NCBI RefSeq assembly: GCF_004382795.1
Contig: NZ_SMSG01000001.1
Span: forward strand, 372,001-436,000
Length of the DNA: 64,000 nucleotides
DNA from: Cumulibacter soli
GTDB lineage: Bacteria; Actinomycetota; Actinomycetes; Mycobacteriales; Antricoccaceae
Reading direction: 5' to 3'
In this document: positions 3,932 to 47,702 of the stretch, piece after piece
Layout: each line of letters starts with the position of its first letter
How positions within the stretch are numbered: the first letter of the stretch is position 1
Position numbers and translations under genes: made by a program
Notes under the pieces: model-generated
What the model saw: the letters and a program-made list of their open reading frames with translations, nothing else
What the model was told of the DNA's origin: nothing
The model's database searches: none

Positions 3932-6514
3932 ATGGCCAAGCGCGGGCTACAGGGCGCGATGATGCGCAGTTTCGGCGCACACGATCACGAAGCGACCGTG
4001 ACGAGTACCGAACTGCTTGCACCGGATTTCTTACGCATTCGGATGCACTCCCCGACGCTCCTGCAAGAGGCCGAGGTCGCGCCCACCGCCTGGCTACGAT
4101 TCTGGTTTCCCGACCCGGACGGCGGCGAGACCGAGTACCAGCGCGCCTACACACTCTCCGAGGTCGACCTTGGGTCCGGGACCTTCGCCGTGGACGTCGT
4201 CCTGCACGAGCCCGCCGGGCCCGCCTCCGCATGGGCGCGGCGCGCGGACGTGGGCAGCACGATCGCCGCGACGTCGCTCGGGTCGTCCCGATTCGATCTC
4301 CCGGACGAGTTCCCAGCGGGGTACCTCATCGTTGGTGACTCCGCCTCAATTCCTGGCATCAATGGAATCCTGCGCACGGTCCCACACCATGTGTCGATTG
4401 AGGTTTATCTCGAGCAGCATTCCAAGAACGACCTACTCATCCCACTCGTGGAGCATCCCCGAGCCGCCGTGCACTGGATCCCGCGACACGGGGAGTCCTC
4501 CCTTGCCGCGGCGATCGAAGCGCGTGACTGGAGCGATTGGTACGCGTGGGCCGCGACCGAATCCGGCTCCCTGAAGGCATTACGCACCCGTCTGCGCGAT
4601 GAGTTCGGATTCCCCAAGTCCGAGATTCATGCGCAGGCCTATTGGTTCTACGGTCGAGCATTCGGCAAGAACAGGTCGAAAGCCGACCCGGAGCCCGACG
4701 TCACGCCGCAGTCCCCGGCACCGGATTCGAGCACCGACGGGCCGACACCCCCCGACGTCACTGCGAAAAGTCCCGCGGCCGCACCGACCGGCGCATGGCG
4801 CGCGCAGGCGGGCAGTCGACTTCTCGCGTCGATGCGCCCAACCTTCATCATTGCCGGCATCGCGCAGGCACTCATCACGCTGCTGCAGCTCGCACCGTAC
4901 GTGCTACTGGTCGAACTGGCTCGGCTGCTGACCGCCGGCGCACCATCCGGCGACCTCTGGCAGGTCGGGATCTGGGCGGTCGCGTTGATGGGCGCGGGCG
5001 TCCTGCTATCGACAGCATTGCTGTTGTGGATGCATTACATCGACGCCCGGTTCTCGCACGCGTTACGCAAACGCCTGCTACGTAAGCTGTCGCGGGTTCC
5101 GTTGGGGTGGTTTGATGCCCGCGGCTCCGGCGCAGTGAAACAGCTCATCCAAGGCGACACGCTTTCGCTGCACTACCTGATCACTCACGCCGTCCCGGAC
5201 GCCGTTGCGGCCACCGTCGCACCGATCGCCGTACTCACCTACCTCTTCGTCGTCGACTGGCGTCTCGCCCTGGTGCTGTTCCTGCCCGTGTTGGCATACA
5301 TCGTGGCGATGTGGATCATGCTGGTGCGCTCCGGGACCAAGCCGGCGCAGGCGATGCGATGGGCGGAACGGATGAATACCGAGGCAGGGGCATACATCGA
5401 AGGTCAGCCGGTTGTCCGGGTCTTCGGTGGTGCTGCCTCGTCCACCTTCCGCGCAAAACTCGGTGAGTACATCGACTTCCTGGACAAATGGCAGCGCCCG
5501 CTCAACGGGCAGAAGACATTCATCGATCTCGTCACCCGACCCGCCACCTTCCTGGTGCTGATCTGCATCTTTGGCACCCTGATCATCACCTCCGGCGGGA
5601 TGCTCCCCGTCGATCTGCTGCCCTTCTTGCTCCTGGGAACGACCTTCGGCTCGCGGCTCATGGGGATCGGGTACGGCCTCGGCGGCCTGCGCGACGGATT
5701 GATGGCAGCCCGCAGGATTCAGGTCGAACTCGACGAGCGGGAACTCGATACCACCGAGATGCAGAGCGCAGCCACGCTCGACGGGCTCGTCGAGTTCGAC
5801 AACGTCGGTTTCTCCTACCGCGACGGCGTTCGCGTACTGCAGGACGTCAGCATGCGGCTCAAACCGGGAACCATGACCGCGCTCGTCGGGCCGTCCGGCT
5901 CGGGCAAATCCACCCTCGCCGCGCTGCTCGCGCGATTCCACGATGTCGACGACGGCGCGATCCGGATCGGCGGAAGGGACCTGCGCGAGCTCGAGCCGGA
6001 CGAGCTTTACGCCCGGGTGGGCTTCGTATTCCAACAGACCCAACTCGTGCAGGGGACGGTACGCGACAACCTCGCGCTGGCCGCACCTGACGCCACCAGA
6101 GAACAAATCGAGAGCGCGGCTCGAGCAGCTCAGATTCACGACCGAATTCTCGAACTGCCGAATGGGTACGACACGGTGCTGGGACCGGACGCCGCCCTCT
6201 CCGGCGGCGAACGCCAACGCCTCACGATCGCCCGCGCGATCCTCGCCGACACACCGATCCTGGTGCTCGATGAGGCAACCGCCTTCGCCGATCCGGAGGC
6301 GGAATTCTTGGTACAGCAGGCATTAACTGCGTTGACGCGCGGGCGAACCGTCTTGGTGATCGCGCATCGATTGCACACCGTCACCGGCGCAGACCAGATC
6401 ATCGTGCTCGACGATGGACGCGTCCAGGAGCGCGGCACCCACCAAGAACTGCTCGACTCGGGTGGGCGATATAGCCAGTTGTGGAACGCCACGAGTGCGG
6501 AGGTGTACCGATGA
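3932..6514 (+). CDS. irtA: Siderophore-interacting domain/ABC transporter fusion, IrtA-like
   Basis: 860 residues in the same order as mycobacterial IrtA: a cytosolic siderophore-interacting (FAD/ferric reductase) domain over roughly residues 1-265 with the FAD motif RAYTLS (71-76), a Pro-rich linker (about 270-300), six membrane helices, then a nucleotide-binding domain with Walker A GPSGSGKS (653-660), signature LSGGE (756-760) and Walker B LVLDEA (777-782). In mycobacteria IrtAB imports ferric mycobactin/carboxymycobactin and the reductase domain frees the iron. The ATG at 3932 gives the N-terminus [16 protein letters not shown], aligned with the known IrtA start, and follows a GAGAGG site. 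It overlaps irtB by 4 bases and carries an upstream IdeR-like box. No siderophore synthesis genes are in the window, so the ligand may be foreign. Confidence 0.92.
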
Positions 6515-45918: not shown

Positions 45919-45956
45919 CCCGCGTCCACTCCGATCTGGAGTGGACGCGGGCTTTG
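45919..45956 (+). terminator. Rho-independent terminator after the serine hydrolase
   Basis: Perfect 14-bp arms CCCGCGTCCACTCC (45919-45932) and GGAGTGGACGCGGG (45938-45951), loop GATCT, followed by CTTTGG. Confidence 0.85.
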
Positions 45957-46109: not shown

Positions 46110-47702
46110 ATGCGAATTCTTCGATCCATTCTCACCCTTGCCGCGGCATGCGCTTGTGCGCTGCTCCCCACGGCAGCATTCGCCGAGCCCAACGATGATC
46201 CCCCAACGTTCATCGCCGGCGACATCGAAGCCGAGGGGCTGCAACTGAAGCTGCCGGGCCAACCCGCCTTCGGCACGTTCACCTACGCCGCAACGTCCGC
46301 GGACGGAGAGCACATCACCGGATACTGCATCGATCTCGATGCGAACTATCACCCCGGCGCCGCCCTCACCGAGTCCGACTGGTCCACACCGTCGGCGATT
46401 ACGCAGCACGCAGACAAGATCAACTGGCTACTGCATCAAAGCTATCCATTCGTCCCGCTCGCGCAGATCTGGCCGGGCGCCGGATTCAACAACGGGCTCT
46501 CGGAAGCTGAGGCAGTGACAGCGACGCAGGCGGCCGTGTGGCACTACTCGAACGGGCTCGACCTCACCGAAGCGCACATCGTCGGCACGGCGACCGAACG
46601 CCAAGACGTGCTGGCGCTCTACGGGCACCTCACGGGTCCAGCGAACACCGGCCAACCACAGATACCAACCGGCACACTGTCGCTCACCGCTGATGGCACC
46701 GGCGGTGTTTCCGGCACCTTGATCGGGCCGGTCACCCTCGATGCGTCAGAACCGACCACGCTCACCCTCGACGGTCCGCCCGGCGGCGTAGAACTTGTCG
46801 ATGCCGACGGCGCACCGCTGGACACCGAGACGATGGCGACCGATTTCTACCTCGATGTCCCGCTCGACACCCCTGCCGGGTCGGTGATGGTCACCGCCAG
46901 CGCAACCACACACGCGCAGACCAGCAGGCTATTCATGCCGACCGGCGCGCAGCCGGCTACCCAACCGCTCGTGGCCGCATCACTGACCAGTTATCCCATG
47001 CATGCCACGATCACGATTCCGTGGACGCCAGCGCCCGCATTGATCACCAGCGCGACCGACGCGGAGGACGGAGACCAGCGGGTGCGCCCGGGAGGAACGG
47101 TGCACGATCAGGTTGCATACAGCGATTTTGTCCCAGGCACCGAATACACCCTGGTCGGCGAACTCATCGACGTCGACACCGGTGAATCGACCGGCGCCAG
47201 CGGATCAACTACGTTCACGCCGACATCAGAGGCTGGTTCGACGCAGGTCACGATCCCGGTACCGCACGATGCCGTCCCGGGCACACAGTTGGTCGTGTTC
47301 GAGCGGGCATACGACGCCGAAGGCAACCTGGTCGCCGAACATACCGACATCGCAGCCGTCTCCCAAACGGTCACGATTGACACTCCGCTGCCTGTACCGC
47401 CCCCGGACTCTCCGGCGCCCGTCACGCCCGAGTCCGTCACACCTGAGCCCGTCACACCGGAGCCAGTCACACCGGAGCCAGTCGCGCCGCAACCGGACAC
47501 CGGCGAGCAAGTCACACCCGAGCCAGTCCTACCTGAACCGGCCGCGGTGATCGAACACGGCACGGATACGGCTGTCGAGATGAGCGCCGAGGAAGATCAA
47601 CTCGCCGAGACCGGCACAAGCCTCGGCCCCTGGATCCTGCTATCGGGCACCGCGCTGCTGGTAGGTGCCGGCACGATGGTGCTGGCCCGGCGCGCCCGAT
47701 GA
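46110..47702 (+). CDS. LPXTG-type surface protein with thioester (TED) and VaFE domains
   Basis: 530 residues. Signal peptide about 1-25 (ends TAAFAEP). Then a thioester domain: Cys73 in TGYCIDLD and Gln140 in ATQAAVW are the residues that form the internal Cys-Gln thioester in Gram-positive adhesins, which can bond covalently to host or surface amines. A VaFE isopeptide-type domain spans about 313-423 (SATDAEDGDQ, DQVAYSDFVPGTEYTLVGEL, LVVFERAYD, then QTVTID). Next is a Pro-rich stalk with TPEPV repeats (about 428-478). It ends with sortase signal LAETG (498-502), a membrane helix and RRAR. It should be anchored to the cell wall, stalk outward. No sortase is in the window. A DnaA-box-like pair lies upstream. 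Confidence 0.88.
   Translation: MRILRSILTLAAACACALLPTAAFAEPNDDPPTFIAGDIEAEGLQLKLPGQPAFGTFTYAATSADGEHITGYCIDLDANYHPGAALTESDWSTPSAITQHADKINWLLHQSYPFVPLAQIWPGAGFNNGLSEAEAVTATQAAVWHYSNGLDLTEAHIVGTATERQDVLALYGHLTGPANTGQPQIPTGTLSLTADGTGGVSGTLIGPVTLDASEPTTLTLDGPPGGVELVDADGAPLDTETMATDFYLDVPLDTPAGSVMVTASATTHAQTSRLFMPTGAQPATQPLVAASLTSYPMHATITIPWTPAPALITSATDAEDGDQRVRPGGTVHDQVAYSDFVPGTEYTLVGELIDVDTGESTGASGSTTFTPTSEAGSTQVTIPVPHDAVPGTQLVVFERAYDAEGNLVAEHTDIAAVSQTVTIDTPLPVPPPDSPAPVTPESVTPEPVTPEPVTPEPVAPQPDTGEQVTPEPVLPEPAAVIEHGTDTAVEMSAEEDQLAETGTSLGPWILLSGTALLVGAGTMVLARRAR

Follow-up and report, generated by a model that had tools for sequence, protein, structure and literature searches.

The window, the whole 64,000-nucleotide stretch of DNA analysed here, contains an open reading frame on its forward strand that begins with ATG, spans exactly positions 46,110 to 47,702, and encodes 530 amino acids. 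The reading frame, its domain matches, and its orthologs within the genus mark it as the complete gene of a surface protein that is predicted to be sortase-anchored and that combines a class II thioester domain (TED) with an ester-bond domain. The domain scores lie well above what chance would give, and two other genomes of the genus contain full-length orthologs. The protein is real, and the frame is a real gene. A terminator-like hairpin of 15 base pairs, 11 of them G-C, follows the upstream serine-hydrolase gene (45,919 to 45,951, forward strand). The consensus scan that located it returned three hairpins where 1.0 was expected, and this stem is the longest by far. Its placement between the serine-hydrolase gene and the adhesin gene suggests that the latter forms its own transcription unit. 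The GC content of the region is even, and genes for MaoC, an FAD monooxygenase, 3-hydroxyacyl-CoA dehydrogenase, and LigD recur around the orthologs. Since these neighbors are conserved, the locus was most likely inherited vertically. A mobile-element origin was considered and rejected, given the even GC content, the lack of a tRNA gene close by, and the conservation of the neighbors in related genomes.

Predicted secretion and sortase anchoring

The protein opens with a typical signal peptide (residues 1–25; 46,110 to 46,184) that, as read from the sequence, would be cut between AFA and EP. Near the opposite end is a proline-rich stalk (residues 425–490; 47,382 to 47,579), also read from the sequence, with six TPEPV-like pentapeptides between residues 439 and 473, five of the form TPE[PS]V and one APQPD. 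It is followed by the LAETG sorting motif (residues 498–502; 47,601 to 47,615) and by a membrane stretch ending in the basic tail RRAR (residues 503–530; 47,616 to 47,699), both recognized in the sequence and in an NCBIfam search. All of these features are on the forward strand. Together with the TED match described below, they bear out the view, reached in a sequence-only reading of the window, of a surface protein, anchored by a sortase, with a predicted thioester, a TPEPV stalk, and an LAETG anchor.

That reading also made its case depend on a sortase gene in the genome. One sortase match was found, to class E (NF033747, 246.8 bits against a cut-off of 160), with its catalytic residues H157, C244, and R253 intact, so the reading withstands this check. 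The gene adjoins trpG/pabA-like and pknB-like genes in what looks like a housekeeping site. LAXTG is the motif recognized by class E sortases (PMC5148588). The window protein has the features of a class E substrate, namely LAETG, the hydrophobic stretch, the RRAR tail, and a cell that encodes the matching enzyme; this sortase would thus be the one that anchors it. At least three further LAxTG proteins (LAATG, LASTG, and LAQTG), counted only among the LPXTG-anchor matches, are encoded in the genome, giving at least four LAXTG-type substrates when the window protein is included. Besides the window protein, a glycine-rich surface protein of 534 residues with an LAATG anchor (L066, C6:133191-133286 region of the same genome) is a likely class E substrate.

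The predicted thioester head

The Pfam TED model (PF08341) matches residues 71–179 with an E-value of 3.1e-18, and the TQXA motif model (TIGR03934) matches with 5.6e-12, the motif itself being TQAAVW at residues 139–144. The Pfam model covers only the first lobe of the head. Alignments and the published class definition (PMC6194298) extend the domain to about residues 28–309 (46,191 to 47,036, forward strand). The domain was aligned with that of a paralog and with 16 domains from related genomes. Among these 18 sequences, whose identity to the window protein is 23–49%, Cys73 (in YCID; 46,326 to 46,328), Gln140 (in ATQAAVW; 46,527 to 46,529), and Gln285 (in ATQPLVAA; 46,962 to 46,964) are each invariant. 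The sequence-only reading had paired Cys73 with Gln140. Because both glutamines are invariant, conservation alone cannot identify the bonding residue, and the choice falls to motifs and solved structures.

Both lines of evidence favor Gln285. The TQxxPhiW motif forms a helix beside the bond, and in the TED tested the bond did not require its Gln or Trp; the bonding Gln instead occupies a weak PhiQzetaPhiPhi motif in a later, C-terminal β strand (PMC4450167, PMC6194298). By these definitions (PMC4450167, section 6; PMC6194298), Gln140 belongs to the helical motif, and its ATQAAVW aligns with ATQLAVW of BaTIE from Bacillus anthracis (6fwv). Gln285, in ATQPLV, fits the C-terminal-strand motif, and the [YFL]C-Phi-zeta motif that carries the bonding Cys is present as YCID. 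A profile of the 18 domains matches two class II TEDs of solved structure over most of the head: EfmTIE86-TED from Enterococcus faecium (6fwy, 2e-9) and BaTIE (6fwv, 1e-6). The Cys of YCMD in 6fwy, Cys88, aligns exactly with Cys73. The published thioester pairs are Cys88–Gln292 in EfmTIE86 and Cys71–Gln266 in BaTIE (PMC6194298); these glutamines, residues 256 (6fwy) and 235 (6fwv) in chain numbering, fall within one to two residues of the Gln285 column in the profile alignment. The partner of Cys73 is thus predicted to be Gln285, so that the cysteine of the earlier proposal stands and its glutamine does not. A model of the domain computed from the single sequence, without an alignment, has a pLDDT of 33.5.

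The competing assignment, in which Cys73 bonds Gln140 and the stalk domain is cross-linked by an isopeptide, draws on the invariance of Gln140 (18 of 18) and on the fact that the equivalent Gln adjoins the thioester in solved TEDs (PMC6194298). We consider it very improbable, both because the TQxxPhiW glutamine is reported as nonessential while Gln285 matches the position of the bonding residue (PMC4450167, PMC6194298) and because the stalk domain, as described below, is a lysine-free PF18202 domain with no means of forming a Lys–Asn/Asp isopeptide.

Cys73 and Gln285 are 212 residues apart, and a β-sandwich (Ig-like) insert lies between them at about residues 185–272 (46,662 to 46,925). The insert contains an invariant G206-P207 and G234, and the profile alignment runs through the corresponding inserts of 6fwy and 6fwv. 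By that alignment, it is approximately 90 residues long; in the class II definition, a β-sandwich insert of some 75 residues separates helix 3 from the Gln strand. Published Cys–Gln spacings for class II are 195, 171, and 204 (PMC6194298). The spacing and the intervening β-sandwich argue for a class II, or "slipknot", TED rather than a short head of class I with a second, separate domain behind it, an assignment that leans on the solved relatives. BaTIE and EfmTIE86 share with the window protein the Cys on the YC-motif strand, the TQxxPhiW helix, the β-sandwich insert, the C-terminal bonding Gln, and sortase anchoring. However, sequence identity to either is very low, and their anchors are of the LPXTG type, whereas that of the window protein is LAETG.

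The conservation of the bonding residues also bears on whether the head is reactive at all. Certain substrates of class E sortases influence how hydrophobic the cell surface is and also affect development (PMC13251363), and the window protein could likewise be a structural component of a cell-surface coat, either lacking the thioester in its mature form or having no role in adhesion. We regard this as improbable, since both bond residues are absolutely conserved among domains that share only 23–49% identity with that of the window protein.

An ester-bond domain in the stalk

The segment that follows the head (residues 309–422; 47,034 to 47,375, forward strand) matches PF18202 with an E-value of 2.9e-25 and the NCBIfam VaFE repeat (NF033903) with 1.8e-20. 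It had been described from the sequence as a VaFE isopeptide domain. The VaFE match is confirmed, but VaFE and PF18202 denote one domain type, the T-Q ester-bond domain, for which both names have been used in searches (PMC12679949). The ester residues T313, D333, E398, H411, and Q419 are all present and are invariant among the ester domains compared. They correspond to T450, D480, E547, H572, and Q580 of Cpe0147 from Clostridium perfringens (4mkm, 4ni6), which the ester-domain profile matches with an E-value of 2e-20. A model built from four sequences reaches a pLDDT of 83; every one of its top structural matches is an ester-bond domain, with Z scores up to 12.9 and an rmsd of 2.5 over 112 residues. 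The fold and the five T, D, E, H, and Q ester residues are shared with both Cpe0147 and 8dj2.

The isopeptide part of the description fails on composition. The whole protein has two lysines, K47 and K103, both in the TED. The stalk domain has none, so a Lys isopeptide is impossible there, and the Lys plus Asn/Asp that a Cna-type isopeptide domain needs are not found together in it. The protein is therefore not a TIE protein in the strict sense of thioester, isopeptide, and ester domains, having only the first and the last, although "TIE" has been used loosely for any combination of such domains (PMC4450167). One departure from the ester-bond pattern concerns the acidic residue that comes after the His, three positions ahead of Gln419, where Ala416 appears to stand instead. 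In Cpe0147, most of the activity survives a change of the equivalent acid (PMC12679949), so a Thr313–Gln419 ester bond is still expected by analogy with the solved relatives. The ester domain is present as a single copy, whereas those of Cpe0147 are repeat domains, and this one domain plus the proline-rich stretch stands in place of the three isopeptide domains of BaTIE and the five of EfmTIE86. The practical lesson for reading such sequences is twofold: the conspicuous TQ motif does not contain the bonding glutamine, and "VaFE" designates an ester domain rather than an isopeptide domain.

These observations can be combined into a proposed mode of action. Export would follow the Sec route, with cleavage behind Ala25, and the cell's one class E sortase would link the protein to peptidoglycan at its LAETG motif. 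An internal thioester would join Cys73 to Gln285 in the class II slipknot head, which would be held outward by one Ig-like domain with its Thr313–Gln419 ester cross-link and by the flexible proline-rich stalk. Solved relatives suggest that both bonds form. The thioester would then most likely react with an amine on a partner surface, such as another cell, a polymer, or a host protein, attaching the cell covalently. A precedent is SfbI, where the reaction yields an amide link to a lysine of fibrinogen (PMC4450167, summarized in PMC8092201). We assign a probability of roughly 0.87 to the reading of the protein as a Sec-secreted, sortase-attached, amine-reactive class II TED protein of the wall, with a Cys73–Gln285 thioester head, an ester domain, and a proline-rich stalk. 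That it acts as an adhesin is an inference; the reaction with a target amine, and the kinds of target just named, are likewise put forward by inference.

Relatives and possible partners

The search covered two other genomes of the genus, and each has a full-length ortholog with a single ester domain, at 49 and 43% identity. Two further orthologs in the same family lack the ester domain, and a tree groups these five proteins together (97/94). With the domain present in three of the five and absent from two, it appears to have been gained or lost within the family while the head was kept, and the function of the head, whatever that may be, does not require it.

A second TED protein, of 694 residues, is encoded in the same genome (C5, L009:4233-6317), some 33 kb away from the gene for the class E sortase. 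It has an LAQTG anchor and a pair of almost identical T-Q ester domains, and its head clusters with a head from another genome (G042) and not with that of the window protein. In G042, open frames of approximately 1,600–1,700 codons (L040, L045) contain many tandem T-Q ester domains, and one match in the same stretch (L054) has an internal TGA stop.

Thioester adhesins have been characterized mostly in pathogens. The sequence-only reading held that few such proteins exist outside host-associated Gram-positive bacteria, a view that did not survive the wider searches. TEDs were found in 17 of 61 genomes in the search among relatives and in 20 of 296 genomes sampled from the whole phylum, eight of the latter coming from one large-genome genus with one copy each. 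Two proteins of that genus match the NCBI model "LAETG motif-containing sortase-dependent surface protein", and a relative on a Streptomyces plasmid is already annotated by NCBI as "Cys-Gln thioester bond-forming surface protein". Bacillus subtilis, too, has an adhesin with a class II TED (PMC8092201). Proteins of this kind are thus common and already named in soil actinobacteria, where TEDs are fairly common and often single-copy. WP_326683026.1 of Streptomyces sp. NBC_01237, a secreted TED protein with this thioester annotation, has the same head, with 31% identity over residues 66–311. The soil-actinobacterial relatives combine a TED, a proline-rich stalk, and an LAxTG or LPxTG anchor, as the window protein does, but most of those examined lack an ester domain, whereas the window protein has one. 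By itself, the protein has little significance; its short two-domain form makes it a convenient, simple test case for the thioester proteins of soil actinobacteria.

The adhesin of B. subtilis, TIEpLS20 of plasmid pLS20, resembles the window protein in being a class II TED adhesin from a non-host setting. It differs in being plasmid-borne, in lacking a sorting signal, in having a Cna-type stalk, and in working in conjugation (PMC8092201). Efficient conjugation needs it, and a version with the Cys mutated fails (PMC8092201), which raises the prospect that the thioester of the window protein mediates contacts between cells, in aggregation or mating, instead of attaching to a host or a material. 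The conserved chromosomal neighborhood of the gene, amid metabolic genes, accords with a bacterial partner of this kind, but no conjugation genes were noticed beside the adhesin gene, either in the window or in the ortholog neighborhoods, and we judge such a role less likely than not. A further suggestion, also less likely than not, is that a minimal class II TED protein of one head and one ester domain may let an actinobacterium with a free-living habit attach covalently to partners other than hosts, whether kin cells, mates, or environmental polymers.

A search for related loci in genome contigs returned a single distant relative, from Atopobium. In an Atopobium metagenome-assembled genome, a long protein with several T-Q ester domains is encoded next to a sortase-like gene and to genes resembling the components of a conjugative element (L007:2234-5332, 5495-6262), a setting that may be compared with that of the pLS20 TED adhesin.
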